A stretch of DNA of 36,619 bases, taken from positions 1-36,619 of the IMG/VR virus record IMGVR_UViG_3300025889_000376. One strand, written 5' to 3'. This DNA comes from a virus. Position 1 is the stretch's first letter. Each line of letters starts with the position of its first letter. The position numbers and the translations under genes were made by a program. Below the pieces are notes generated by a model. It made no database searches, was not told the origin of the DNA, and worked only from the letters and a program-made list of their open reading frames with translations. Of the stretch, positions 581 through 34,969 are shown one piece after another.

Positions 581-1048
581 ATGGCGGGTCTCAAGGATAC
601 CCTGCGGGCCGCCTTTACCTTCTGGCCCTTCTGCTTGGCGACCTACGTCGCCCTGATTGGGGCTGCATGGCTGCTGATTGGGGGCTGGAAGCCCGTTAAA
701 CGCGATTTCCCCGTGTATGTGGTAGCTGACCCTGCCGAGGCTGCCAAAACGGCTGGAATCGCCCTTAACGGGCAGATTTGGGCCGTTGGGAACACGGGAT
801 CCATGAAACCCCTGCTGCAAGGCGGGGAAATGGTCGTTTCAGTCAAGAACTACCCTGCCATTGAGCTAGGGCAGGTGCTGATCTACTCAGCTACCTACCA
901 CGACAAGCCGATCATTCACCGTGCCGTGGAGAAGGATTCTTACGGTTGGCTCATGTCGGGCGACTCCTCTCCGCGTTCAGAAAGCTGGGCTAGGGTGACG
1001 GAAAAGAACTACCTCGGCACCGCTGTTGCCGCCTACCGGAAACTTTAA
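581..1048 (+). CDS. Phage-encoded type I signal peptidase-like protein (S26 family, Ser-His type)
   Basis: The 155-residue protein has one N-terminal membrane helix (about residues 14-34, FWPFCLATYVALIGAAWLLI) followed by an extracytoplasmic catalytic domain. The family boxes are visible. The nucleophile box is SMKPLL with Ser74. Box D is IIHRAVE with His113 where bacterial enzymes have the general-base Lys. Box E is SGDSSPRSES around Asp128. The His version is the one known from eukaryotic ER and archaeal/SipW-like enzymes. The length is near the minimum for the family. The gene sits between tail genes, and its stop overlaps the start of the tail hub gene (TAATG), so it is co-translated with virion proteins. 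The substrate could be a phage virion or lysis protein or a host exported protein; this is inference. Confidence 0.75.
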   Translation: MAGLKDTLRAAFTFWPFCLATYVALIGAAWLLIGGWKPVKRDFPVYVVADPAEAAKTAGIALNGQIWAVGNTGSMKPLLQGGEMVVSVKNYPAIELGQVLIYSATYHDKPIIHRAVEKDSYGWLMSGDSSPRSESWARVTEKNYLGTAVAAYRKL

Positions 1049-3660
1049 TGGATCGTTATCGCTCATACGGCCAGAATGACGACCAGCCAGCCCAAGTGGG
1101 GGATAATTCCCTGCTTGGGGTGGACGAGTACAACGCGCCTGAGAACATCAAGCCGGGCAACGTCCAGAACGCCGTAAACGTCGATTTCAGCCCTCAGGAT
1201 GCCACGACGCGGGGTGGGTTGGTCTGTATGCCGGAACTGGGCAACGAGCCGTTTGGCTACAAGCTGTCCAACAGTGACATCGGGGCCACTGGAACGGCTG
1301 TTAGGGACGGCGTGTATGCTGGCGGGTACTACGTCATGGCCGGTTACAGCGGCAACATTTGGATCAGCACGGATGGCGTTACTTGGTCAGCCAACATTAG
1401 CCCCTACAGCGGACAATCAGTACGCTCTGTGGCTTACGGCGGAACTACGACCAAGTACTGGGTGGCGGTAGGCGACAAGGTGCTAAGTGGTGGCTACTAC
1501 AAGTCGATTAGCCGGACGACTGCTCCGAGCATGACTCCGACTGTGTGGACTCCGTGCAATCAAGGTTTTGAAAGTTATACTGACATCTGCTTCGGCAATA
1601 ATTTGTGGGTGGCGGTAGGGCCATATGCGGTCGGTTATTCATCGGATGCGAATAATTGGACCGAAAGCACGGCTAATGGTTTTACTTCGGTAACTTACGG
1701 CAACGGTCTCTTTGTCGCCGTTTCCGGTTTTGGAACGTACTATTCAACTGATGGCGCGACCTGGACGCTCGGCACAGATTTCAGCACGCCATTCATTGCG
1801 GATGGGTACACCGGCTCGTTCTCTAAGGTCCGCTTTGGGGCCGGTCGGTTTGTAGCCATCACCAACGGCCAGCACCCGCAGTACGTTTACTCGGATGATG
1901 GCGTTACCTTCCAGTACGCACCGTTTAACCTAGAATACCCTGAGAACTGGAACCTCAACGCTTTGGCCTACGGGAATGGCCTGTGGGTGGTTGCTGGGGC
2001 CGCTGGCACAACCCGCAAGGTCTGGGTATCGACCGAGGGCACCGGCTGGCAGGCAGTCAGTATTCCGGCATCTGCCGCTGGGGACTACTTCGGGGCGGTC
2101 TACGGTAACAACAAGTTCATCTTTAGCGGGGATTCCAACGCTGGGATGACGCTTAACTGGTACGGAGCGGCAATTTTTGCTTCTGGGCTGTTTTCCGACC
2201 CCAACGATGCTTCTCAAGTTTGGATCGTCCTAGCTGGGTACGACCGCGTTGGTTTCTACTCCAACGGACGGACATCCAAGTCCATTTCCTACGCAGCTAG
2301 TGAGTACCTGACCACGCAGGGAACCATCGTCCAAGCCAACAATCAGATTTACCTGTTCCGTGGAGCTGACCAGACCCCGCTGTACTGGGACGGTAACTGG
2401 AACGGGACGTTTGCGTTAGTTCCCGACACCACGCTACCGGGCAGCTTCAACAGCATCCCCAACAGCAACCAAGCCACGTTCTACCAGAACCGGCTGTGGG
2501 TGGTTGACGGCAAGGATGACATCGCGGCCTCGGATGTCCTTTCGTTTACGGACTATGACCCGCTGGCCAACGAACTGTCCACCAACACGGGCAACAGCGA
2601 TTACGTCGTAGCCACTTTCCCGTTTGGCCAAAACAGCCTCATCGCCTTCAAGAACAAGAGCATCCAGTTGCTCCAGAACTGTGAGGGCGGCCTGTCGGAT
2701 GTCACCACGACCGAGATCACCCGGCAAGTTGGTCTGATCGGCATTAATGCCGTCTGCTCGGTTGGACCCGATCTGGCCTATGCCAGCTACGGCAACATCA
2801 ACCTGCTGACGCTGACCAGCACCAACAACAGCCTCCAGCACAAGACCCTGCCATTGTCCGCCAAGGTCCGTAAGATCATGGAGCGGGTGAACTGGCAGGC
2901 GGGGACCAAAATCAGCATGGGGTACTGGAGCAACCGGCTTTACGTCGCCTTGCCGCTGGATAACTCCGAGCGTTGCAATGCTCTGATCGTTTACAACTTC
3001 ATCACCGAGAACTGGTACGGTGAATGGAACTTTGATCCGTTGATGTCCATGAACCTGCAAGGGTTCCAAGTCATCGACTATCTCGGCCTCCAGCGGTTGC
3101 ACGCCATTACCGAGGATGGGCGTATCTTCGTGACGGACGAGGGCTATCAGGACATCAGCGGCAGTACGCTGGCTGAAATCTCCTACAACCTGACCACCCG
3201 CGCCTACGACACGAGCAACCTGGTGCACTTCCAGCGCCGGATGTTCATGGATGTCGGCACCATCCGTCCGTCCTTCTCGGTCTACTCGTACACGGAAGGC
3301 GCCAACGAGGTCAGCACGCTCATTGAGGATCAGATCTACAGCCGGTCCGAAAGCTGGAAGTTTAACGACTCGGACTACGATCTGACCAACGCCAACGACG
3401 ATTACAACCGGCCCTACCGCAAGGATTACTCCAGCGGTCCGTTGGCGGCTGGCAGCACGTCTGGATTGCCCGCCACCGGCCTGCAATGCGGCAGCGGCTT
3501 CCAGCCTGAGATGTACCAGGAGTACCGCTTCCCGCTGCTTACCCGCCGGCAAGGCCGCCTAACGTGGCTGCAACTGACCAATTCACAGGGATACCTTAAA
3601 CTCATGTCCATCGGTGCAGAAGCGCGGATGGGCCAGCGTTCCAGCCTCGTCACCGTCTAA
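1048..3660 (+). CDS. Large tail hub/tubular-type protein with an inserted beta-propeller (870 aa)
   Basis: Residues 1-90 and about 400-870 look like one phage tail protein. The N-terminal part has the 'APENIKPGNVQNAVNVDF' type start seen in hub or tail tubular protein B-like proteins. The C-terminal part contains WYGEW and a long beta-rich section. Between them, about residues 90-380, are at least five imperfect repeats of the form (Y/V)-GNG-L/FVAVxG followed by YSTDGxTW, for example STDGVTWS, STDGATWT, SDDGVTF and STEGTGW. These are Asp-box/BNR-type blades of a beta-propeller. The protein probably forms part of the short tail, with the propeller exposed and possibly binding a surface glycan. 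The start is the ATG overlapping the signal peptidase stop. Confidence 0.7.
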   Translation: MDRYRSYGQNDDQPAQVGDNSLLGVDEYNAPENIKPGNVQNAVNVDFSPQDATTRGGLVCMPELGNEPFGYKLSNSDIGATGTAVRDGVYAGGYYVMAGYSGNIWISTDGVTWSANISPYSGQSVRSVAYGGTTTKYWVAVGDKVLSGGYYKSISRTTAPSMTPTVWTPCNQGFESYTDICFGNNLWVAVGPYAVGYSSDANNWTESTANGFTSVTYGNGLFVAVSGFGTYYSTDGATWTLGTDFSTPFIADGYTGSFSKVRFGAGRFVAITNGQHPQYVYSDDGVTFQYAPFNLEYPENWNLNALAYGNGLWVVAGAAGTTRKVWVSTEGTGWQAVSIPASAAGDYFGAVYGNNKFIFSGDSNAGMTLNWYGAAIFASGLFSDPNDASQVWIVLAGYDRVGFYSNGRTSKSISYAASEYLTTQGTIVQANNQIYLFRGADQTPLYWDGNWNGTFALVPDTTLPGSFNSIPNSNQATFYQNRLWVVDGKDDIAASDVLSFTDYDPLANELSTNTGNSDYVVATFPFGQNSLIAFKNKSIQLLQNCEGGLSDVTTTEITRQVGLIGINAVCSVGPDLAYASYGNINLLTLTSTNNSLQHKTLPLSAKVRKIMERVNWQAGTKISMGYWSNRLYVALPLDNSERCNALIVYNFITENWYGEWNFDPLMSMNLQGFQVIDYLGLQRLHAITEDGRIFVTDEGYQDISGSTLAEISYNLTTRAYDTSNLVHFQRRMFMDVGTIRPSFSVYSYTEGANEVSTLIEDQIYSRSESWKFNDSDYDLTNANDDYNRPYRKDYSSGPLAAGSTSGLPATGLQCGSGFQPEMYQEYRFPLLTRRQGRLTWLQLTNSQGYLKLMSIGAEARMGQRSSLVTV

Positions 3661-3662
3661 CC

Positions 3663-4277
3663 ATGCCTTCCGTCACTCCCGGCTATTCCTTTACGGGTCC
3701 GACCGACCCGATCACCTACACCAAGCTGAACCTGCTGGGTCAGCCTACGGTGGCTGCCGTGTCCACGAATGACGTGACCACCAGCACGATTGCAGACTTG
3801 GCGGTTACGACGGCCAAGTTGGCTGACGATGCGGTAACGACGGCTAAGATTGCGGATGATGCGGTTACCAGCGATCAGATTGCCTCAGGAAACACTTACG
3901 ATGCGGTTACGTTGTCTGGCGGGGTTACGATCACGCAGGCAACGCCGGTTTACGAGACTTACAGCACGGTGCTGTTCGGCAGCACGATTTCCCTGACGTT
4001 TGGGGCTACGGACGGAAACACTCGCCGCATCGCCTGCTCCAGCAGCACCGCAGCCACGATCAATGCAGCTACGGTCCCGAGGGCTGGCTACATGCTTCAG
4101 ATCACGTTTACGACCGACGGTACGGGCGGGAACGTAATCACTTTCGGAACTGGCTTTAAGACGCTTACAGCCACTTCCACGCTGACCCTGACCGGCACCA
4201 ACAAGTACTTTCAAATCGCGTTCGTTTCCGATGGCAGCCACCTGCTGGAGATGAGCCGCACCGCAGCTGTTGGCTGA
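3663..4277 (+). CDS. Short tail fibre-like protein with TTAK(L/I)ADDAVT repeats (204 aa)
   Basis: After a short N-terminal segment (about residues 1-40) come tandem repeats of the form VTTAKLADDAVTTAKIADDAVTS at about residues 42-75. This is a collagen-like or trimeric fibre shaft motif common in phage fibres. The C-terminal 120 residues are rich in Thr, Ser and Gly and predicted to be beta-structured. The gene starts three bases after the tail hub stop with the leader TAACCATG. A trimeric short fibre attached to the hub is the likely role. Receptor specificity cannot be read from the sequence. Confidence 0.65.
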   Translation: MPSVTPGYSFTGPTDPITYTKLNLLGQPTVAAVSTNDVTTSTIADLAVTTAKLADDAVTTAKIADDAVTSDQIASGNTYDAVTLSGGVTITQATPVYETYSTVLFGSTISLTFGATDGNTRRIACSSSTAATINAATVPRAGYMLQITFTTDGTGGNVITFGTGFKTLTATSTLTLTGTNKYFQIAFVSDGSHLLEMSRTAAVG

Positions 4278-4284
4278 TCCCACC

Positions 4285-6876
4285 ATGGCTATCAAAACTG
4301 ACAAGAGCACCACGGATGACGAGTTGGACTTTCTGGAAGGCGGCTCGACCGGCAGCAATCCTGAGATGCCCGATTTTACGTCTGGAGGCAGCATTTTCGG
4401 CACTCCTGGCGGTCTGTTAGGGTCTACGACGATTGGGGCTGATGGTGGCACCCCTGGTGGATTTCTGACGGGTGCTGCACCTACGTTTGGCGTACCGGGG
4501 CTGGTGCCCGGCACTACGCTAGACAGCATCGGCACGTTTGACCCGTCCGGCACGATGATGGGCAACACGTTCCTCAACAGCCCGTCCGGCCTTGGGCCGT
4601 CCGGCATTGATTGGAGTACTAAAGGAGGGGATTGGTGGAATAACACGACCACGGCTGCTGATCCTGATATGAGTGGCGTTGCTTTGGGCAGCGCCCCTTT
4701 CCGCAACATAAGCATTGCGACCGGAACTCCATCTACCACGGGGGGCGTTACGACGTTGACCGAAACTCCCAATGTGGGAGGAAACGTCACGACTGATGCT
4801 ACTGGAGACGTAGTAAAACTTGATCCCTTTAAGGTGGGTGCTGGCAGTCAGGGTCCAGATTTCCTAGCTCCGGGATACATTTCAACGCCAGTCACCGGAG
4901 GAAATGCCCTCCTTGGAGGAATAAGCACGGGTGCGGCAAATGCTGGCGGCGTTACCGTCATGGATCCGTTCCAAGTGACGGACACCAATCTGCCCAAGGT
5001 CTCATTTAACTTCAATCAGTCCACGGAAACGACGCCGAGTACGCCGGGTGCTACTGGAACAACGGGTGGATCAGATGTCACCACGCTTCCGACGATGACG
5101 GTCACCGGAAGCAGGGTTGATAACCCCAATCCATTTACCACGCAGGATGCCATTGATTTGCTTAACAAGGCTACTGCTAACTGGGGTCCAAGGCCAATCA
5201 CCCTTCCTCCGGTTACAGCTACGGCCACAAGCACGGCTACGACTACATCCACTAACACAATAACTCCTACGATTACCTGTCCATCGCCTGAAACGCCAAT
5301 TCTGTTGGCCGATGGATCTGAGATTGCTGCTGGCAAACTGAAGGTAGGCGATAAAGTTCGGACCTCTCACGAGCATACAAAAGCGTGGGGCGATTTTACC
5401 GTCACGCATGTTGAAACCGTCAAGAGCCACCGTTTGTGCCTAGTTCTGGATCAAGGGCGCTTCATTTGCTCCCCGACGCACAAGTTCAGTACTGGCGATG
5501 GATGGAAGGAGGCCAAGGATTACAAATCGGGCGACAAGCTGCAACATCGCACCGTCCTTGCCACGGTTGGTCTTGAAGATGGCGATGTGGTCATCATCAC
5601 CGTTAATGACGCCCACACCTATGTTTCCCAAGGACTTCTATCGCATAACAAGTCGATAATAACTCCGCCGCCTCCGCCTGGTCCTATCATCGGCCCTGGC
5701 GTTACTGTTCCGCCTCCACCTCCTCCCCCTCCTCCCCCGCCTCCTCCGCCTCCGGGTGGCACTACTGGTCCTACGACTTCTGGACCGGCGACTCCCAGCA
5801 CTCCGACGTCTACCACTTCCTCCGCCATGAACCAACGTGATCTTGAGGCAGAACTCGGCAAAAGCCTTTCCGCCTTGCAGAAGTATCAGCCCCAGATGCT
5901 GGGGATGTACAAGGACATCTACAACCAGTTCATGCCGGAGAGCCTGACGGCTGCCTCTCGGTCTGCCCTTGGTCAGTTGCAGGCCGATGAAGCCAAGCTC
6001 GCCCGCCTCCGCGCTGGTCAACTGTCCCCCGAGGATGTCCGTCAGTCCCAGCAGGCTGCCCGTGAAGCCTACGGCGCCCGTGGCCAGGCCATGGGAACCG
6101 GAGCCATTGGAGCGGAGATCCTGAACCGCGAGAACATCCGTCAGCAGCGTGAGGATCAGGCCCGTGCCGCCTACCAGCAGTCCATGGGTAACTTGTTCAA
6201 CACGGCCAACCTTCAGACCGGCAACATCTTCAACCCGATTGCCAGCCTGATCAGCGGTTCCTTTAACCCGTTGGGCGCTTACCCAGCTGACGTGTACGGC
6301 ACCAACGTGAATGCCCAGTTGGCCCGCGACATTGCCCAGAAGAACTATGAAGCCGCCGTTCGTTCTGCTGAGTTGCAAGGCTCTGCTGCCAAGTCGGCTG
6401 CTAACACCAGCATTTTTGGAGACGTTTTGAAGGTCGGAACTGAACTTAAACTGTTGTTCAAGTGTCTGCCTGGCGATCAAGCTATTGACACGCCTACTGG
6501 CTCCAAGGCTATTGAAAGCATTCGTGGCGGCGATGAAGTCATCGGCTACGATGGTCTGCCGCATCGTGTGTTGCAGGTTTGCTCATACGTCGAGAATCCT
6601 GAGACCGAGTTCCTGACGTTCACCCTTGAGAACGGTAAAACGATTACCACCTGCGACAAGCATCGGATCCTCGACATTCCTGCCATGGAGTGGGTGGTTG
6701 GCGCCAAGATGAACGGCCTTGAGATCAAGAGCATCCACAAGAAGGTTGGCATTACTACCAGCTATGACCTTGTGACAGAAGTTGGCGGTTACCAGATCGC
6801 CGGTGTTCCGGTAAATTCGATGATCCCTGAGATGCTGGCGCTGACCATGCAACTCGTAGCCCTCAAGCACGCCTAA
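4285..6876 (+). CDS. Virion protein with two Hint (intein/hedgehog-like) self-processing domains (863 aa)
   Basis: I start at the ATG at 4285 (CCACCATGG); a TTG 15 bases upstream is less likely. Residues 1-330 are Gly/Thr/Pro-rich low-complexity sequence. Hint 1 spans about residues 332-455. It starts at Cys332 (CPSPETPILLADG), has a block-B-like CSPTHKF, and ends YVSQGLLSHN with Asn455, followed by Lys rather than Cys/Ser/Thr. Next comes a linker with a run of about 15 prolines. Residues 540-720 are a helical, Gln/Ala-rich domain like an internal virion protein. Hint 2 spans about residues 727-844: it starts at Cys727 (CLPGDQAIDTPTG), has CDKHRI, and ends AGVPVNS with Asn844-Ser845, where Val replaces the usual penultimate His. 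Only 18 residues follow. The context implies a tail or ejection protein. Protein cleavage at the Hint borders is inference from the family. Confidence 0.75.
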   Translation: MAIKTDKSTTDDELDFLEGGSTGSNPEMPDFTSGGSIFGTPGGLLGSTTIGADGGTPGGFLTGAAPTFGVPGLVPGTTLDSIGTFDPSGTMMGNTFLNSPSGLGPSGIDWSTKGGDWWNNTTTAADPDMSGVALGSAPFRNISIATGTPSTTGGVTTLTETPNVGGNVTTDATGDVVKLDPFKVGAGSQGPDFLAPGYISTPVTGGNALLGGISTGAANAGGVTVMDPFQVTDTNLPKVSFNFNQSTETTPSTPGATGTTGGSDVTTLPTMTVTGSRVDNPNPFTTQDAIDLLNKATANWGPRPITLPPVTATATSTATTTSTNTITPTITCPSPETPILLADGSEIAAGKLKVGDKVRTSHEHTKAWGDFTVTHVETVKSHRLCLVLDQGRFICSPTHKFSTGDGWKEAKDYKSGDKLQHRTVLATVGLEDGDVVIITVNDAHTYVSQGLLSHNKSIITPPPPPGPIIGPGVTVPPPPPPPPPPPPPPPGGTTGPTTSGPATPSTPTSTTSSAMNQRDLEAELGKSLSALQKYQPQMLGMYKDIYNQFMPESLTAASRSALGQLQADEAKLARLRAGQLSPEDVRQSQQAAREAYGARGQAMGTGAIGAEILNRENIRQQREDQARAAYQQSMGNLFNTANLQTGNIFNPIASLISGSFNPLGAYPADVYGTNVNAQLARDIAQKNYEAAVRSAELQGSAAKSAANTSIFGDVLKVGTELKLLFKCLPGDQAIDTPTGSKAIESIRGGDEVIGYDGLPHRVLQVCSYVENPETEFLTFTLENGKTITTCDKHRILDIPAMEWVVGAKMNGLEIKSIHKKVGITTSYDLVTEVGGYQIAGVPVNSMIPEMLALTMQLVALKHA

Positions 6877-8580: not shown

Positions 8581-11500
8581 ATGGCCGATCCCAATTCCTC
8601 AATGATTCCCGTGCAGGTAGGCGGGCAAACGATCTACTTTTCCAAGGACACACCAGAATCGGAGGTGCTGGCTGAGGTTAAGATGATTGAGCAACAGCAG
8701 CAGATGGGGACTGCACCCGTCATGCCCAGTTCGTTTCAGACGCCGACGCCGACTCCTGTTAACGTAGCTGCTGGACGCGCCTTGGCCCCCATTACGACAA
8801 GTGCAGCGGAAATGGGCGGTGCGGTTCTTGGTTTAATGACGTTAGGGACTCGCGGCAGGCCAGGGGTGCCAATGACGATGGGGCAGAGGATTAGCGGTCA
8901 GATGGTTCCCGCCGGATTCGGGGCAGGAGTTACTCGTACCGGCATTGAGACGTTGCGTCCATTTCTGACCAACGAACCGCCTCAGTATTCTTCCGTTGCC
9001 CCTGCCGTTATCGGAGGCGCTGCATTAACTGCTCCCACGATGGGACTAGCTCGCGCTGGCCTGTTTCCCGGCATGGGATCTTTGGCTAAGGAAGCCGTTT
9101 ATCAAGGCGCTGTAGGCGGGGTTATGGGTGGGGCGGAGGAATTGGCCAAGGGTCAAATGCCTACCTTGGCAGGTGTGGCTGGTCCCGGCGTTGTTGGCGG
9201 CGCCCTGGGTGCGCTTGCGGGAGTTCCTACCGTTTACGGGCAGCAATTCATGGATGCTGCTGGTAAGGCGATCACCAACATCAATGCGTTTGTTAACGCT
9301 GGGATTAAGAACGTGACGCCAGCGATGGTGAATCCAGCCCGTTACGGCAAGGAAGAGGCCAAGCGTCTGAGTAACGGTCTGTTTGATTCTCAAGGCAGGG
9401 AAGTCGTCAATCGGCGTAATTCCGTTTACGCTCAACTGTCAGACGGCGTCACTAACAGCGTCGGCGCCCGACCGGAAGGAGCGGCGCTCGCCTCGACCAT
9501 TCGTGAGCGAGTTATGACGATACCTGAACTGGAAGCCGCCCGCACCAAGGCGATAGCGGTCAAGGATCAGTCTCAGGCCGAGTTGGCTAGGGCGGCGGAA
9601 GCTCGCAGCAAGGCCGAGGCTGCTAATTTCGCAGTAAAGACCGAAGAGAGCCTTAAAGCCCACAAGTTGGCCGTTACGGCGGAACAAAAGGCGTCTGAGC
9701 GCAATTTTGAGGCCACGATGCGGTCGTTGGTTGAGGATGCTCGGACCATGTCGTTGGAGGCCTTGCAGCAAACCGGACGCGGCGCGGACGCCCCTGCGGT
9801 ACGCCAGTCATTCGTTGATCGGATCGTAAAGCCCATGAAATCGGCTTACGATGATTACTTCACTAGGGGTTTTGAGGCCGTTCCCAACGACGTTGCCGGT
9901 TTTGATGCACGTCCTGTCATCAAGGAAGCCAAGGCGCTACGGGACAAGTTGGCGAAAACCGAGAACGTAAACTCGCCTGAAATCAGCAAGCTCAACGCTG
10001 TCATCGCTGACCTGGAGGGAACGGGACGGCCTGTTGCTACCCGTGAGTTTGGACAGTTCGGGATGTTTTCTCCCGTCCGTGAGGTGACCCAAGAGCCCGC
10101 GTATCAAGGTCTGACGCTCAAGCAATTGCGTGACATACGCGATGCGCTCTACAACTTTGGCCAAGTAGGAGAGGTCGTCGGCCCTAACAAGACGCAAATC
10201 AAGGGTCTGGGTCGCTCTATCAGCAAGCAGATTGAGGAGCAGGCCGAACGAGTTTATGGCCCCGAGATTGGCTCCCACCTCAAGGGAATCAGCGCGGATT
10301 ACCGTTTCTACAAGGACCTGACGGAACGTGATGGGTTCAGCGCGCTTTTCTCCAGCGATGCCAATTCCAAGGCGGTCAATTCGCTTGTTGATGACGTTCT
10401 TAATCACGGCCCCGGCATTGAGTCCTACGCTAACGTCGTGTCTTTCATTGAGAACCTTGCTGCTCCCAAGCAGGGAATGACCGTGGCGAAGACCGAGGCT
10501 GGCCCTGTTCTCATGCAGGGAACGACGATCATAGCCCCAGAAATGGCTGCTGCGATGAAGGGCCACTTAAACGGCCTGATTCACTCCAACCTGCTCAAGC
10601 GGGCGGAGGCTAACGGAAAGATCAACAACACGGTCCTGTCCGGCCTATTTGAGAAGATCGGCAATCACGAAGGTCTGCCTGAAATGATGGGGTACTCCCG
10701 TGGCGACATCGCCAACTTCTCAGCGATGCTGAAGGATTTCCCCGATGTTGGTCGCCTGACCGAGCAGGACATGGCGACCTACTTGACCAACCCGTATTTC
10801 CGTAAGCTGGCAGAATCGCGTGGAACGGGCCTTTCCAGCATCATCCGCATGGACATGGCGGAACGCGCCGTGCAGGAGCGGATGAATCAGGCCACGCTCA
10901 TGGAAAGCGCGGGCAAGGTTGCCGAGGCTCGTCGCCTGTACGATTCCGCTCAGGCTATTGCTGCCAAGAACGGCATTGATGCAGCAGCGGCGGACGCCAA
11001 GTACAGGGCCGCCCTAGGAACGCCGGGATTGCGAGTATTCGCTCCTGGCGTCAAGGGCAGCCCCGAGGGACAGATTAACGCCGAAAGCTATCGGACCATC
11101 CTTAAGACGTTGTTTGATCCTGCGGCTGGTGCCACCAGCAACAAGTACGTTGAGAACATCTTTACTTACTTGCGGTCCAGCCGCGATCCTGCGGATAAAC
11201 AGCTTCTGAAAGACCTTCAGGCTTCCTACGTTAACGACTACCTAAACCTGTTTCAGACCGAGGCGCGAGGAGGGATGCTTGGAGAAGTGCCGTCAGCCCG
11301 TAAGTTTGCTGAGTACTTTAACCCGCTTCCAGGCGCCCCTGCGGCGGCTGAAATGCAACGCGCTCAAATCGTCCTTGATCCTGCTCAGTTCGACGCGATG
11401 CAGAAACTGTTCAAGGCCGGTGAGCAGCTTCGTAAGTACGAGTTGGCGCTACCGGAACCCTCAGGCCGCAAGGCTGACGGCAAACTCAGCCGCGAGCAAC

Positions 11501-11772
11501 GGACCTTGTTTGGTGAGGCTACCAAGATCTTTTATCGTGGCATTGAGGGCGTCGCTGACGCCATGCGTCGCGGGGACTACAACAGCGCCCTTGCCGGCCT
11601 GATGGATCCCGACAAGTACGCCAACCGCCTGTACGCCAACGGAGAATGGATAACCCTTGGAGGACGTGCGGCTGGGTTTGCTCCTACCCGCGCTTACATG
11701 GAGGCTCAGAACCGTGGCCAACAGCCCATTCCTCCGTACTTGCAACGCTTCATCCCGCAACCGACCCGCTAA
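8581..11772 (+). CDS. Very large internal virion/DNA ejection protein (1063 aa)
   Basis: This is the largest gene in the window. The N-terminus has a short beta motif (VQVGGQTIYFSKDTPESEVLAEV, residues about 11-33) that I associate with N-termini of large phage virion proteins. Residues about 60-220 are small-residue-rich with GxxxG repeats, possible membrane-inserting or transmembrane segments. Residues about 310-400 form a strong charged coiled coil. The rest is helical. I see no transglycosylase catalytic motif. A channel or ejection role across the cell envelope fits the size, the glycine zippers and the last place in the tail cluster, but this is inference. Confidence 0.6.
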   Translation: MADPNSSMIPVQVGGQTIYFSKDTPESEVLAEVKMIEQQQQMGTAPVMPSSFQTPTPTPVNVAAGRALAPITTSAAEMGGAVLGLMTLGTRGRPGVPMTMGQRISGQMVPAGFGAGVTRTGIETLRPFLTNEPPQYSSVAPAVIGGAALTAPTMGLARAGLFPGMGSLAKEAVYQGAVGGVMGGAEELAKGQMPTLAGVAGPGVVGGALGALAGVPTVYGQQFMDAAGKAITNINAFVNAGIKNVTPAMVNPARYGKEEAKRLSNGLFDSQGREVVNRRNSVYAQLSDGVTNSVGARPEGAALASTIRERVMTIPELEAARTKAIAVKDQSQAELARAAEARSKAEAANFAVKTEESLKAHKLAVTAEQKASERNFEATMRSLVEDARTMSLEALQQTGRGADAPAVRQSFVDRIVKPMKSAYDDYFTRGFEAVPNDVAGFDARPVIKEAKALRDKLAKTENVNSPEISKLNAVIADLEGTGRPVATREFGQFGMFSPVREVTQEPAYQGLTLKQLRDIRDALYNFGQVGEVVGPNKTQIKGLGRSISKQIEEQAERVYGPEIGSHLKGISADYRFYKDLTERDGFSALFSSDANSKAVNSLVDDVLNHGPGIESYANVVSFIENLAAPKQGMTVAKTEAGPVLMQGTTIIAPEMAAAMKGHLNGLIHSNLLKRAEANGKINNTVLSGLFEKIGNHEGLPEMMGYSRGDIANFSAMLKDFPDVGRLTEQDMATYLTNPYFRKLAESRGTGLSSIIRMDMAERAVQERMNQATLMESAGKVAEARRLYDSAQAIAAKNGIDAAAADAKYRAALGTPGLRVFAPGVKGSPEGQINAESYRTILKTLFDPAAGATSNKYVENIFTYLRSSRDPADKQLLKDLQASYVNDYLNLFQTEARGGMLGEVPSARKFAEYFNPLPGAPAAAEMQRAQIVLDPAQFDAMQKLFKAGEQLRKYELALPEPSGRKADGKLSREQRTLFGEATKIFYRGIEGVADAMRRGDYNSALAGLMDPDKYANRLYANGEWITLGGRAAGFAPTRAYMEAQNRGQQPIPPYLQRFIPQPTR

Positions 11773-28455: not shown

Positions 28456-28653
28456 ATGATCACCAAGCGATGCGTTGATGAGTGGCTGATTGAGCCGGAC
28501 GTGGAAGGAGCGCGGGAATACGCCCGTTTGTCCGTTACCGCCGAGCCGGATGGACTAAACATCGACGGGCAAGGCGTCATTCCGTGGACGCAACTGATGA
28601 CCGCCCGTCAGTCCTACACGTTAAACCTCAAAAAGCGCGATGCCGCTCGGTGA
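28456..28653 (+). CDS. Small hypothetical protein (65 aa)
   Basis: The product begins MITKRCVDEWLIEPDVEGAR and ends WTQLMTARQSYTLNLKKRDA. It is short and mixed alpha/beta. It overlaps the large-terminase start by 14 bases. It might be a small packaging accessory by position. There is no family match I can name. Confidence 0.55.
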   Translation: MITKRCVDEWLIEPDVEGAREYARLSVTAEPDGLNIDGQGVIPWTQLMTARQSYTLNLKKRDAAR

Positions 28654-30280
28654 CGTTTACTTTGCCGACGACTTCAAGCCGTCGTTTGGCATCCCGTGGG
28701 TGGACATCCCGAATCGGGACATCCTAGCGTCGTGGCCGCAGGAGCAACTGGTCGAGTACTTGGCCTTCCGCGAGGAACGTAACCGGCAAGCCCTCGACAA
28801 CCCCGTGGGCGCAGGCTGGACGCTGCCCATGTGGCATGAGGTGATGGACGCTTGGAACAAGTACCAGAACATCATCATCCTTGGTGGCAACCGGAGTGCC
28901 AAGAGCGTGTTCGCCAGCCGCCTGTGCGTGTGGGCCGCCGGCACGATACCCGCCGCCGAGGTCCGTGCTTACCACGTCAACGAGGACCGGAGCATTGAGG
29001 ATCAACAGCGGATGATCTACGACGCCTTACCCGTTGGCATCCGTTCCTTACCGACCAAAAAAGGACTGAACCATTCGGTCCAGTATTCACAGAAAAACGG
29101 CTTCACCGACAACATCTGCATCTTGCCCCCGCTACAAGGCGCCCGTCGTGGTGGCAGCATCAAGTTCAGTAATTACCGTAGTTATCAAGCGGACGCGCAG
29201 GTGGCCGAGGGCTACAAGGCCCACGTCATCTGGTGCGACGAGGAATGTCCTCAGAAGATGTTTGAGACGCTCCAGTACCGCACGTCCGACTACCACGGAC
29301 GCATCATCCTGACGTTCACCACGCTGACCGGATGGACCCCGCTGGTGCAGGACATCCTTGGCAAGACCCGCACGATCAAGAAGCGGTTTGCTCCGCTGGT
29401 CGGCAAGGATTTGCCCGTCATCCAAGAGTCCATCAGCCGCCCCAACACGGTCATCTTCTATTTCTGGACGGAAGACAACGCCTTCCTAGATACTTCCGAC
29501 TTCTCCAAGAAGCTCCTTGGTCGTCCCCGCGAGGAAGTCCTTGCCCGCGCTTATGGCATTCCCACGAAGTCGATTACTTCCGTCTTCCCCGGATTCAACA
29601 AGGAGGTCAACGTCATCCCCCATGAAACGATTCCTTTCGTCCGTAACGCAGACTATGCGGTCACTCGGTACATGGCTGTGGATCCGGCTGGCTCAAAAAA
29701 CTGGTTCATGCTCTGGGTCGCCATCGACGCCGCCGGAACCTGGTGGGTCTACCGAGAGTGGCCCGATTACGACGACTGGGCCTTGCCCGGATCAACCGCT
29801 GAAGGAAAGCCCGGCCCCGCGCAAAAGGGCAGCAAGAAAGGCATCAAGGACTACGTCGAGCTTATCGGTCAATGTGAGAACGGCGAAACGATTTACGAAA
29901 GGTACATTGACCCGCGCCTCGGTGCAGCGGAAAGGCAGAGCGCCGAAGGAGCAACCACCATCATCTCCGAGTTGGACGATGTGGGAATGACGTTCATCCC
30001 CGCGCCCGGCGTGGAGATCGAGAACGGGCTGCAACTGATCAACGGGCTGTTGTCCTACGACGAGAAGAAGCCCATCTCCGCGATGAACGGCCCCAAGCTG
30101 TACATTTCGGAGCGGTGCCAGAATCTTGTCTACTCCATGCAGGAGTACACGGCCCGTGGCGGAAAGGATGAGGCGACCAAGGATCCCGTGGACTGCCTAC
30201 GCTACCTGCTGGTTTCCAACTGCGAATTCATCGACGGCAGCAAGGTTGAGGTGGAAGATAATCGGACGTGGAGTTATTAA
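28640..30280 (+). CDS. terL: Terminase large subunit (546 aa)
   Basis: The ATPase domain has LGGNRSAKSVF (Walker A-like, residues 81-91), VIWCDEE (Walker B with catalytic Glu, 196-202) and IILTFTTLTGWTP (coupling motif, 222-234). The RNase H-like nuclease domain has AVDPAGSKNWF (Asp348), YIDPRLGA (Asp424) and DPVDCLRY (Asp518). The ATPase packages DNA through the portal and the nuclease cuts concatemers. Length and motif order match the families of short-tailed and siphovirus phages with headful-like packaging, although the exact cleavage mode cannot be read. Confidence 0.95.
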   Translation: MPLGDVYFADDFKPSFGIPWVDIPNRDILASWPQEQLVEYLAFREERNRQALDNPVGAGWTLPMWHEVMDAWNKYQNIIILGGNRSAKSVFASRLCVWAAGTIPAAEVRAYHVNEDRSIEDQQRMIYDALPVGIRSLPTKKGLNHSVQYSQKNGFTDNICILPPLQGARRGGSIKFSNYRSYQADAQVAEGYKAHVIWCDEECPQKMFETLQYRTSDYHGRIILTFTTLTGWTPLVQDILGKTRTIKKRFAPLVGKDLPVIQESISRPNTVIFYFWTEDNAFLDTSDFSKKLLGRPREEVLARAYGIPTKSITSVFPGFNKEVNVIPHETIPFVRNADYAVTRYMAVDPAGSKNWFMLWVAIDAAGTWWVYREWPDYDDWALPGSTAEGKPGPAQKGSKKGIKDYVELIGQCENGETIYERYIDPRLGAAERQSAEGATTIISELDDVGMTFIPAPGVEIENGLQLINGLLSYDEKKPISAMNGPKLYISERCQNLVYSMQEYTARGGKDEATKDPVDCLRYLLVSNCEFIDGSKVEVEDNRTWSY

Positions 30281-30319: not shown

Positions 30320-32467
30320 ATGAGTTCCATCGACTCCATCCAGACTTCCGTGCCCAATGACCCCGGCTTGCAGTTGGCTCCCGTAGGAGACGCCGGCCCC
30401 AATTTCAACCTCCTCAAGAAGGCGTTTGAGGACTGCGTCCGTGACAACCAGCCGTACATCGACCAGTGCCGGCTGAACTACCAGACCCGCTACGCCATCT
30501 GGAACGGACAGTCCGCTGACGGCAAGAAGCACGCCCGTGAAGGCAGCAAGACCAGCCCCACTCCGTGGGATGGCGCGAGCGACCTGCGCGTCTTCCTGAC
30601 GGACAACATCATCAACAAGAAGGTAGCCATGCAGTGCATGGCATTCCAACGTGCTAATTTGTCGGCAGTACCCGTAGGTACTAACGACATGGCCCGCTCT
30701 CAGTTGGTGACGAACTTCATGCGCTGGCTGATCCAGACGCAGATTCCCGAGGTGGACCGCGAGGTGGAGATTGCATCCAACTACCTCAACGAAAAGGGCT
30801 TGGCCGTCATGGGTCAGTTTTGGGAAAAGCGTCGTGAGAAGGTGTTGGTCAACGTCCGCATTGAAGACCTCCAAGAGCAGTTCCCGCAGATCGACATCAC
30901 CGCCCTGATCAACGACAAGGGCGCCGAGAACGATCTAAAGAGCATTTTTGAGGAGCAGTACGGATGCTCCAAGGCCAAGGCCGCCTCCATGCTGCGGGAA
31001 CTCCGCAAGAGCGGCGAGACCAGCGTGCCGATGGACGGTCCCGAGCGTAGTTACCCCGTCCTCCGTGCGTTCAACCTGGACGAGAACCTGTTCATCCCGT
31101 CGTTCAGCCTCGACCTTGAGCGTGTCCCCGGCATCTACCGCGTTGAGTACTTCACCGCCGAGCAGCTCCGTCAGTTGGTTCGTGATGACGGTTGGGACAA
31201 GGACTGGGTGGAGAAGGCGATTGAAACGCAGCGTGGTCGTCTAATCACGATTAGTCCGTCCGAGTACCTTCAGCCGATCAGCCGTTCGTTTGTCTACACG
31301 CAGCAGCGGTTCACGGACAAGATCGGCGTCGTGTTCGCTTACCAGCGGTTGTCCGACGAGGACGGCATCCCCGGCATCTACTGCACGGTGTTCCATCCGA
31401 TGATGCCGCCCGACACTAACCACGAAGGCTACGCCAAGACGGGCCTCCTCGGTTACGCTCACGGCGAGTATCCGTTTGTCTTGTATCGCCGCGAGTACCT
31501 GTCGCGTAAGTTGCATGACTCCCGTGGCGTTCCCGAGCCGGGCAAGCCGTGGCAGGATCAGATCAAGGCGCACAAGGACAGCCGCATCGACGCCGCGTCC
31601 CTCGGAATTCTTCCTCCGATCTGCTACCCGCAAGGCCGCCCGCCGGGCCGCTGGGGTCCAGGTGCCATGATCTCGGAACGGCGTCCGAATGAGTACCATT
31701 ACGCCGACCGTCCGATACCGGACATGAACACGGAGAACTCTGAGAACCTGCTGGAAGCATCGTTCAAGGAGTACAACGGTTTTGCCAGCAAGGAAGGCGA
31801 TCCGTCCATTGACCCGATCTACAATCAGTTTGAGGTAAACAAATTCCTCACCTGCTTGGCCAAGAGCTTCCGACAGATCTGGAAACTGTACAAGCAGTAC
31901 GGCCAAGAACAGATCGTCTTCCGCGTCATGGGAGTAAAGGACGCCGAGAGCATGGTGTTCAACAAGGGAGACGTGAACGAGGAGTTCGACTTCTACCTGT
32001 CGTGGGACGTGCAGTCCACGGACTTCAAGCGGATGTCGGAAAAGTGGACGGCCATCATCCAAGGCGCCCAGTCGCTTGACCGCGACGGCGTCTGCGATTG
32101 GGCCGCGCTCTTCCAAGCGTTCGTGTCGTCCATCGACCCCAACATCGCGGAACGCATCATCCGTCCCGCCAAAGCTGGCCAGCAGCAGATCGTCAACGAC
32201 GAGCAGCAGGACTTGGCTCAGATTTTTGCCGGCATTCCCAAGAACATCCGCATTGGCACGCCGCCCCAGATCGGCCTGCAAGTCATGCAGCAGTACCTCC
32301 AGCAGCCCGACGTGCAGCAGCGGTACTCGCAAGATAATGCCTTCCGCGAGCGCATTGATGCACGGGCCAAGCAGTACCAGTTCCAAGCGCAACAGCAGCA
32401 GAACGCGCAGATTGGTCGCCTTGGTGCCGCGATGCCCGGCCCGATGCCGGCCACTACCACGCCTTGA
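30320..32467 (+). CDS. Portal protein (715 aa)
   Basis: The protein is large, soluble and follows the terminase. The first 130 residues (PYIDQCRLNYQTRYAIWNGQ, SPTPWDGASDLRVFLTDNII) read like the wing/stem start of P22-like portals of about 700 residues. It contains FWEKRREKVLVNV, further alpha/beta core elements, and a Gln-rich C-terminus (QQQQNAQIGRLGAAMPGPMP) like a barrel region. It forms the dodecameric DNA channel at the head vertex and binds the terminase. The assignment rests on position, size and overall pattern rather than a short motif. Confidence 0.85.
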   Translation: MSSIDSIQTSVPNDPGLQLAPVGDAGPNFNLLKKAFEDCVRDNQPYIDQCRLNYQTRYAIWNGQSADGKKHAREGSKTSPTPWDGASDLRVFLTDNIINKKVAMQCMAFQRANLSAVPVGTNDMARSQLVTNFMRWLIQTQIPEVDREVEIASNYLNEKGLAVMGQFWEKRREKVLVNVRIEDLQEQFPQIDITALINDKGAENDLKSIFEEQYGCSKAKAASMLRELRKSGETSVPMDGPERSYPVLRAFNLDENLFIPSFSLDLERVPGIYRVEYFTAEQLRQLVRDDGWDKDWVEKAIETQRGRLITISPSEYLQPISRSFVYTQQRFTDKIGVVFAYQRLSDEDGIPGIYCTVFHPMMPPDTNHEGYAKTGLLGYAHGEYPFVLYRREYLSRKLHDSRGVPEPGKPWQDQIKAHKDSRIDAASLGILPPICYPQGRPPGRWGPGAMISERRPNEYHYADRPIPDMNTENSENLLEASFKEYNGFASKEGDPSIDPIYNQFEVNKFLTCLAKSFRQIWKLYKQYGQEQIVFRVMGVKDAESMVFNKGDVNEEFDFYLSWDVQSTDFKRMSEKWTAIIQGAQSLDRDGVCDWAALFQAFVSSIDPNIAERIIRPAKAGQQQIVNDEQQDLAQIFAGIPKNIRIGTPPQIGLQVMQQYLQQPDVQQRYSQDNAFRERIDARAKQYQFQAQQQQNAQIGRLGAAMPGPMPATTTP

Positions 32468-33967: not shown

Positions 33968-34969
33968 ATGGCTCTATCAACTACTTACAATGTGGCGGGC
34001 GACCGTGAAGACCTCACGGACTTCCTGACCATCCTCGCTCCCGAGGATACTCCCAAGATCTCGACGTTCTCCAAGACGAAGAGAATGACCAATGCCTATC
34101 AGGAGTGGCAGGTCGATAGCCTTTCCCCGGTCGCCTTTGGTGGCGTGCTGGAAGGTCAGGATGTCCTCGCCTTCTCTAATCAGGCCGTCAACCGCGCTCG
34201 TATCGGTAACTACGTTCAGCAGTTCCGCGAGCAGTGGATGGTTTCCCGCCTCCAGGAGGCTTCGGACGTTGCTGGCGTGTCCAGCGAGGTTGCGAATGCC
34301 AAGATGAAGGCGATGCGCGAACTGAAGCGCGACATCGAAGCCTGCATCGGCTCCGACAATGATCGCCAGCAGGAGGCTCCGCCGGCCCCCTACAAGCTGC
34401 GTGCCCTCGGCAAGTGGATCAGCAACACGCCCGGTTCGGACGTGCCCGCTGCCTTCCGCACGCCCACCGGCAACATCAACTCGACCAGCACCAGCACCCT
34501 TGGTGAGTCGGCCTTCAACGACGTGTTCCAGTCGATCTTCCAGCAGGTCGGTGGCCGTCGCTCCTACACGCTGTTTGCCGGTCCCTCGCTCAAGCGTGCG
34601 ATCAGCAAGTTCCAGCGCACGGAAGGTTCTTCCGGCACCACGAAGACCTACATGGTCACGCAGGATGCCTCGGAGCATCAGATCGACCTCGACGTGACCG
34701 TTTACGTCGGCGACTTCCACACCGTGACCATCGTCCCGGACCTGTTCAACGGCATCCTTGATGGCGGCGATCCGTCGTCCACCACGGACCAGCAGAAGGC
34801 CCGTGGCTACGTCATCGACCCCGAGCTGGTCGGCATCGGCTATATGCTCGGTATCGAAAGCAACGAACTTCCTGACCTCGGTGGTGGTCGTCGCGGGTTC
34901 ATCCTCGCGGCGTTGACCCTCATGGTTAAGAATCCTCTCGGCCTCGGCAAGTTCGCCGCGACGAGCTAA
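33968..34969 (+). CDS. Major capsid protein, DUF5309/SU10 type (333 aa)
   Basis: The N-terminus MALSTTYNVAGDREDLTDFL, then TILAPEDTPKISTFSKTKRM and a WQVDSLSPVAFGGVLEGQDV segment, fits the DUF5309 major-capsid family, an HK97-fold group that includes phage SU10. A helical spine (NAKMKAMRELKRDIEACIGS) and a beta-rich C-terminal half (YMVTQDASEHQIDLDVTVYV) follow. It starts nine bases after the scaffold stop without an SD. High expression is expected; codon use is visibly cleaner (GCC, CTC, GTC-rich) than in the early genes. Confidence 0.85.
   Translation: MALSTTYNVAGDREDLTDFLTILAPEDTPKISTFSKTKRMTNAYQEWQVDSLSPVAFGGVLEGQDVLAFSNQAVNRARIGNYVQQFREQWMVSRLQEASDVAGVSSEVANAKMKAMRELKRDIEACIGSDNDRQQEAPPAPYKLRALGKWISNTPGSDVPAAFRTPTGNINSTSTSTLGESAFNDVFQSIFQQVGGRRSYTLFAGPSLKRAISKFQRTEGSSGTTKTYMVTQDASEHQIDLDVTVYVGDFHTVTIVPDLFNGILDGGDPSSTTDQQKARGYVIDPELVGIGYMLGIESNELPDLGGGRRGFILAALTLMVKNPLGLGKFAATS

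Follow-up and report, generated by a model that had tools for sequence, protein, structure and literature searches.

Protein architecture

The 863-aa product of a gene in virus record IMGVR_UViG_3300025889_000376 is read here, with about even confidence, as a virion structural protein, modular and probably of the ejection type, which would process itself at two places by means of Hint domains of two lineages. This reading is based upon modelled folds, intact catalytic residues, family-wide conservation, and module mobility. The window, i.e., the whole stretch of DNA analyzed, consists of this single record (36,619 bases). The gene and its parts are laid out as follows:

4285..6876, + strand, gene for the 863-aa virion-type protein, from its ATG start through the stop codon
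4285..5277, + strand, Gly/Thr-rich N-terminal part, residues 1-331, pI 4.1, aligning with relatives L088 and L089
5260..5267, + strand, ATAACTCC, an 8-bp direct repeat (left copy), next to Hint1
5278..5649, + strand, Hint1, residues 332-455 (C332 ... H399 ... AHTY ... SHN455), type A BIL-like
5650..5652, + strand, Lys456, directly behind the terminal Asn of Hint1 (+1), a Lys conserved across the family
5650..5829, + strand, Pro/Thr-rich linker, residues 456-515
5659..5666, + strand, ATAACTCC repeat (right copy), on the other side of Hint1
5710-5754, + strand, 15 prolines, residues 476-490, inside the linker after Hint1
5830..6384, + strand, conserved core, residues 516-700, common to 10 aligned relatives
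6439..6462, + strand, hydrophobic/basic N-flank of Hint2 (TELKLLFK), residues 719-726, with Lys at -5/-6 in 15/20 Hint2 domains
6463..6816, + strand, Hint2, residues 727-844 (C727 ... H793 ... D828 ... PVN844)
6817..6873, + strand, 19-residue C-tail (SMIPEM...), residues 845-863, predicted helix, travelling with Hint2

The key residues were taken from the translation: C332, H399, H454, N455, and K456 for Hint1 (SHN/K456, the slash marking the junction after Asn) and C727, H793, D828, V843, N844, and S845 for Hint2 (PVN/S845). The opening residues at the ATG at 4285 (MAIK) are common to the window protein and L088. The N-terminal part is acidic and the core is basic (pI 9.1). A preliminary description of this DNA had proposed two unlike Hint domains and a poly-proline linker in one protein, and both proposals were borne out: the catalytic Cys, block B His, and terminal Asn are intact in both domains, and the linker carries its 15 consecutive prolines.

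Fold assignment of Hint1 and Hint2

Pfam PT-HINT matched residues 343-457 (3.7e-6), with a whole-protein score exactly at the cut-off and a Hint1 domain-only score under it (23.2 vs 27.7 bits). Pfam Hint_2, Hint, and Hom_end_hint matched parts of residues 726-795 (E 2e-4 to 2e-3, all under the cut-off), and NCBIfam returned intein-type matches only. When the whole 863-aa protein was used as the query, phmmer matched mostly Pro-rich chains and one intein chain, and a related-locus search found none.

AlphaFold2 models of both domains were built from alignments of relatives. Modelling, which had been suggested earlier as a check, returned a Hint fold for Hint1 (pLDDT 94.6, pTM 0.86) as well as Hint2 (pLDDT 92.1, pTM 0.82), and the top of the Foldseek and VIA lists for both models was made up of Hint-fold structures only (inteins, BIL, Hedgehog; VIA Z 16-18). 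The best Foldseek match of Hint1 was Tetrahymena BIL2 (E 7.6e-9); its highest VIA Z (18.4) was shared by 6fre and 6y75 with many ties (6y75: 129 aligned, 2.0 A), and 2lwy was aligned at Z 17.3 (123 aligned, 1.7 A, 28% identity). For Hint2, the best Foldseek match was the MchDnaB intein (E 7.3e-7), and the VIA list was headed by Hedgehog 1at0 (Z 17.3; 118 aligned, 1.8 A), the Z values of inteins differing from it by about 1 at most. Because the Pfam and NCBIfam signals (present at both places, though mostly weak), the models, and the tops of the structural lists agree, both Hint folds are more than chance. Profile-profile comparison of Hint1 with Hint2 gave E 1.9e-5 over the first 90 columns at 18% identity, and on these sequence comparisons the two are distinct, mutually distant lineages.

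The block B Thr is replaced in both domains (by Ser in Hint1 and mostly by Cys in the Hint2 family, C790 in the window), and Hint2 lacks the penultimate His. These changes count against processing at two sites and would fit a reading in which neither domain is active and both act as folded spacers or decorations. We consider that reading very improbable; the Cys, His, and Asn are invariant across Hint1 relatives (33-52% identical to the window) and Hint2 relatives (38-65%), which argues against it and is consistent with the preferred reading of two active domains.

Genome context

Terminase (28640-30280), portal match (30320-32467), and major head protein (33968-34969) genes lie in one stretch of the window. 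The start of the window holds, in order, a head-closure-like gene (1048-3660), a tail-fibre-like gene (3663-4277), the 863-aa gene, and two large genes without an assigned role. Two genes downstream of the 863-aa gene, a 1063-aa protein is encoded at 8581-11772 that had no match in Pfam, PHROGs, or phage records. The same gene order was observed in phage C75C1 (OQ984151), in which head closure Hc3 and tail fiber genes are followed by a large gene. By eye, the C-terminal part of that gene's product resembles the core, and no Hint-like stretch was seen within the 2,524 residues inspected.

From synteny and from relatives that fall in "virion structural protein" PHROGs (an assignment present in relatives only), we infer that the 863-aa product is a virion protein; that its location is deduced in this way counts against the two-site reading. 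Short-tailed phages keep internal virion proteins at this place (see also PMC10386132), and this gene position therefore points to a role that is probably of the ejection type. The helical "ejection-type core" of the preliminary description is thus plausible by gene order but found no counterpart by homology: the core profile had no match in the PDB at E 1, so no link to a known ejection protein was obtained, and PHROGs gave one weak match (1 of 11).

Hint1 as a cassette in the linker

In the Hint1-free alleles L088 and L089, both Hint1 flanks align across the missing domain, and alignment scores were higher without Hint1 than with it (1091 vs 967 for L088 and 1162 vs 1038 for L089). Hint1 therefore behaves as a cassette in the Pro/Thr linker. 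A distant core relative (L123) carries a Hint1 domain in the same slot as the window. The ATAACTCC copies at 5260 and 5659 flank Hint1, 399 bp apart and in frame, and the window has a single further same-strand copy, at 2960; the repeat is possibly the footprint of cassette entry.

Hint1 family and the conserved lysine

Nine Hint1 query sequences were used in a scan that retrieved 112 viral relatives, 80 of which were kept. Counts were made on 74 of these 80 loci, leaving out L197, L236, L239, L263, L266, and L281 (apparent repeats or already seen); 11 duplicates were removed and 62 distinct domains resulted. L295 is absent from this count and by eye ends SSN/IK. Of the 62 domains, 38 lie at the extreme C-terminus, with no more than 20 residues beyond the Asn and in most cases preceded by a stretch rich in Gly or Pro; 23 are internal, many between Pro/Thr-rich linkers, and one is cut by a contig end. 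Carriers include a lambda I-like tail assembly protein (phrog_32), a tail protein (phrog_376), phrog_1101, J-like central fibre proteins (phrog_5616, phrog_31), and phrog_358/DUF4815 proteins. Since these are unrelated tail or virion proteins, Hint1-type domains have been added many times.

Nine columns were invariant across 63 aligned rows (C1, A18, H68, I107, A112, T114, Y115, H123, N124), covering Cys1, the block B His, and the terminal His-Asn. A Lys follows the terminal Asn in 62/62 domains, at +1 in 23 and at +2 in 39, and at +3 to +10 there are at most 2 Lys per position of 62. Internal domains mostly have Lys at +1 (19/23) and terminal domains at +2 (35/38). The +1 residue is K in 23, I in 14, V in 7, L in 5, A in 4, M in 3, R in 3, T in 2, and Y in 1 (n = 62); thus the window domain has no Cys, Ser, or Thr at +1 (Lys456), and two family members have Thr. 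That Hint1 with its Lys is not a standard intein had been proposed beforehand and agrees with this family-wide pattern.

The Lys after Asn was not part of the Hint1 search patterns. In a late scan, queries were trimmed at Asn and the Lys forecast was set beforehand; among 25 new contigs, Lys was present at +1/+2 in 20/20 distinct new domains. Eighteen of these belong to one "KG" clade, so about three independent lineages were added rather than twenty. L401-L426 form a clade of phage proteins, ~500-600 aa long, whose internal Hint1-type domain ends SHN/KG.

As a control, 22 distinct junctions were collected from bacteria by PF07591 searches of 299 and of 288 genomes, together with an A6 search. 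Lys was present at +1/+2 in 8/22 of these PF07591-type junctions, which rules out Lys at +1/+2 as a phage-specific trait: six are HN/KGGG in multi-Hint secreted proteins, one is HN/K at a frame end, and one is HN/GK. The other 14, including one that is probably a false regex match (L307), have no Lys at these positions. Lys at +1 after HN occurs in 7/22, which counts against the two-site reading. Separately, four bacterial secreted proteins (L331, L333, L334, L335) were observed to carry two or three tandem Hint domains with just K-G or K-G-G-G as spacer; behind them come a hydrophobic stretch and then a long C-terminal region.

Comparison of Hint1 with known systems

By sequence profile, the best PDB matches of the Hint1 family are two BIL groups, namely 2lwy (3.8e-12) and Tetrahymena BIL2 (6y75/6tmm, 7.8e-12). 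Hint1 resembles the type A BIL of Clostridium thermocellum (2lwy) in Cys1, the His-Asn end, the absence of Cys/Ser/Thr at +1, small size, a variable-region setting, and absence from close relatives; it differs in being placed in phage tail or virion proteins and in having Lys at +1/+2 in all members counted. On its sequence, Hint1 is a type A BIL-like domain of a phage branch and is predicted to be self-processing.

Pretoxin HINT (PF07591) is the Pfam family that matches Hint1 and some of its relatives. The pretoxin system is defined by a toxin domain after the Hint domain. This reading of Hint1 was rejected, as a phage structural-type core follows Hint1 instead of a toxin. Pretoxin-type bacterial junctions are of the kind AC, CG, TC, or DS and, except for one GK, are without Lys at +1/+2.

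Tetrahymena BIL2 of BUBL (6y75, 6tmm), the top Foldseek match of Hint1, is reported to form a Lys epsilon isopeptide bond on splicing, the nucleophilic Lys residing in the next domain (PMC8616854). Because of this precedent, an acceptor role for Lys456 is reasonable by analogy. The BUBL Lys lies in a downstream ubiquitin-like domain, whereas that of Hint1 directly follows Asn and no ubiquitin-like domain was seen; the Hint1-family Lys may also be structural. Attachment to another nucleophile, raised in the preliminary description, is accordingly a serious option that is now narrowed to the conserved Lys.

Proposed processing at Hint1

In the scheme that follows, here and for Hint2, the activity of the domains, the order of steps, the products, and the role in the particle are what we infer. 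Both Hint domains would process the chain during or after assembly. As a removable cassette, Hint1 would use Cys332 to convert the bond after Thr331 to a thioester; Asn455 would cyclise, and Lys456 (alpha or epsilon amine) would be the acceptor. The acidic N-terminal part would then be released, or re-joined to the basic core through Lys456.

Another possibility is cleavage without ligation at both sites, by which the N-terminal part, core, and C-tail would be separated in assembly as by a built-in maturation protease. We rate this as unlikely, though with a real share of plausibility. Type A BILs mostly yield cleavage products (available text of PMC4031507), Hint1 has no Cys/Ser/Thr at +1, and removal of the domain may suffice for the 38/62 relatives at the extreme C-terminus. 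However, the families conserve Ser+1 (Hint2) and Lys+1/+2 (Hint1) as they do catalytic residues, and pure hydrolysis would need neither. The cleavage proposed in the preliminary description is plausible for Hint1; for Hint2 it was too thinly argued, since none of the class 1 splicing nucleophiles is missing there.

Hint2 family and mobility

Scans for Hint2 covered viral contigs and species genomes and returned 22 loci, comprising 19 C-terminal Hint2 domains and three other inteins (L214-L216) that were not counted. With the window domain included, VN/SM is present in 20/20. Cys1, His, Asp, Asn, and Ser+1 are kept in 13 aligned rows, and tails range from 16 to 37 residues. Since Val precedes Asn in all 20 domains, it is a feature of the family, and Val843 as a decayed His was rejected.

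Hint2 was also found on carriers other than the core. For L207-L213, which are phage-type and mostly repetitive proteins, comparison with the core gave nothing better than E 0.56, so that no similarity was detectable. In Verrucomicrobia MAGs (L297, L298, L299), Hint2 follows a short hydrophobic stretch behind a lipobox (LSSC, LTGC, LGGC), forming small stand-alone lipoproteins; that of L299 is clearly chromosomal, between tRNA synthetase, NA37, SufBD, and ABC transporter genes. Hint2-free relatives lack the SMIPE tail, and the tail recurs on unrelated carriers. Given the same flank and tail on unrelated carriers, the unit of hydrophobic flank, Hint2, and SM tail moves as a whole.

Hint2 resembles class 1 inteins in Cys1, block B His, Asp at F:4, Asn, and Ser+1, and differs in having Val rather than His before Asn, no block B Thr, no endonuclease (118 aa), and a tail that is part of the module. 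A strict mobile class 1 intein was ruled out, as there is no intein-free extein and the tail moves with the domain; this behavior, unlike that of a mobile intein in a conserved extein, also counts against two-site processing. The preliminary description had taken Val in place of His as a sign that Hint2 does not splice. That argument is not supported: the Val is family-wide, about 5% of functional inteins have a residue other than His before Asn (available text of PMC4031507), and Cys1, Asn, and Ser+1 are kept. Given this retained class 1 set and these His-less inteins, splicing by Hint2 is a fairly likely possibility.

Under the preferred reading, Hint2 would be a portable C-terminal module in which Cys727 forms a thioester, Ser845 can take the acyl chain, and Asn844 cyclises without a penultimate His. 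Hint2 would be spliced out and leave its own 19-residue tail on the core; failing ligation, the core would be cut free and the tail discarded. Calculated masses are 89.6 kDa for the precursor, 32.8 for 1-331, 13.5 for Hint1, 28.4 for 456-726, 12.8 for Hint2, and 2.1 for the tail, and a doubly spliced chain would have about 63.3 kDa.

Transfer of the Hedgehog or BUBL kind was weighed as well, in which the thioester at Cys332 and/or Cys727 would pass to an outside nucleophile (a Lys of a neighbouring virion protein, a lipid, or other) and so cross-link or anchor the protein. Hint2 shares with Hedgehog Hog/Hint and Hint_2 (PF13403) its C-terminal position and short, here helical, tail; its Hint_2 match is partial and sub-threshold, and Hedgehog 1at0 stands first in its VIA list, level with inteins. 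The Verrucomicrobia lipoproteins and the Lys isopeptides made by BIL2 (PMC8616854) point the same way. Hint2 nevertheless keeps Asn and Ser+1, which are unused in Hedgehog processing, and has no sterol-binding region (19-aa tail only); we judge transfer to be improbable.

Possible significance for virion maturation

Maturation of phage particle proteins usually relies on dedicated proteases or S74-type chaperones. Here, two separate and little-described Hint lineages are spread as plug-in modules among phage structural proteins, and in the Hint1 lineage a Lys is kept as strictly as the catalytic residues. Both families recur in phage structural proteins, so the viruses that carry them may cleave, splice, or weld the proteins of their own particles once these have been made. 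If active, Hint1 and Hint2 would represent a new route of virion maturation or cross-linking, as well as compact tools to cut and join proteins. In a bolder version, which we hold to be distinctly doubtful, Hint1 would found a large phage protein-welding family, in which the Lys+1/+2 side chain attacks the N-terminal thioester for ATP-free isopeptide joining or cross-linking of tail or virion proteins (as in Tetrahymena BUBL), and Hint2 would splice a standard membrane-active tail onto ejection proteins.

Among the open-access papers listed in literature searches, none dealt with BIL domains or Hint domains of phage tail or virion proteins; subscription papers on BILs (Amitai 2003, Dassa 2004) may describe some phage BILs. 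The Hint domains described in the available text of phage papers lie in genes for terminase or for other enzymes (PMC5259590, PMC5526547, PMC3556154).

Core relatives and the C-terminal slot

A related terminase was present in 161 viral stretches, 80 of which were kept. Thirty-two of those 80 were searched with the window protein, and relatives were found in 11; most other records were short fragments. A second scan with the core as the query returned 80 ORFs (72 distinct), among which Hint1 occurs in one (L123), Hint2 in eight, a C-terminal module starting CWVAREVYG in five, and Peptidase_S74-like ends in two. Both Hint domains together were found in none of these 80 other core ORFs, the window being the only one so far. 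The combination, described earlier as unusual, is therefore unusual within the core family but less so beyond it, as tandem and triple Hint proteins exist in bacteria.

The Peptidase_S74-like ends of L132 and L134 (Pfam PF13884 for L132) fill the same C-terminal slot as Hint2; this intramolecular chaperone belongs to another Pfam family and has no Hint signature. Its presence in the Hint2 slot of relatives suggests that assembly aids sit at this end of the protein. The CWVAREVYG module (L105, L106, L119, L147, L157) is a conserved stretch of ~70 aa in the same slot, with its Cys directly behind a hydrophobic stretch.
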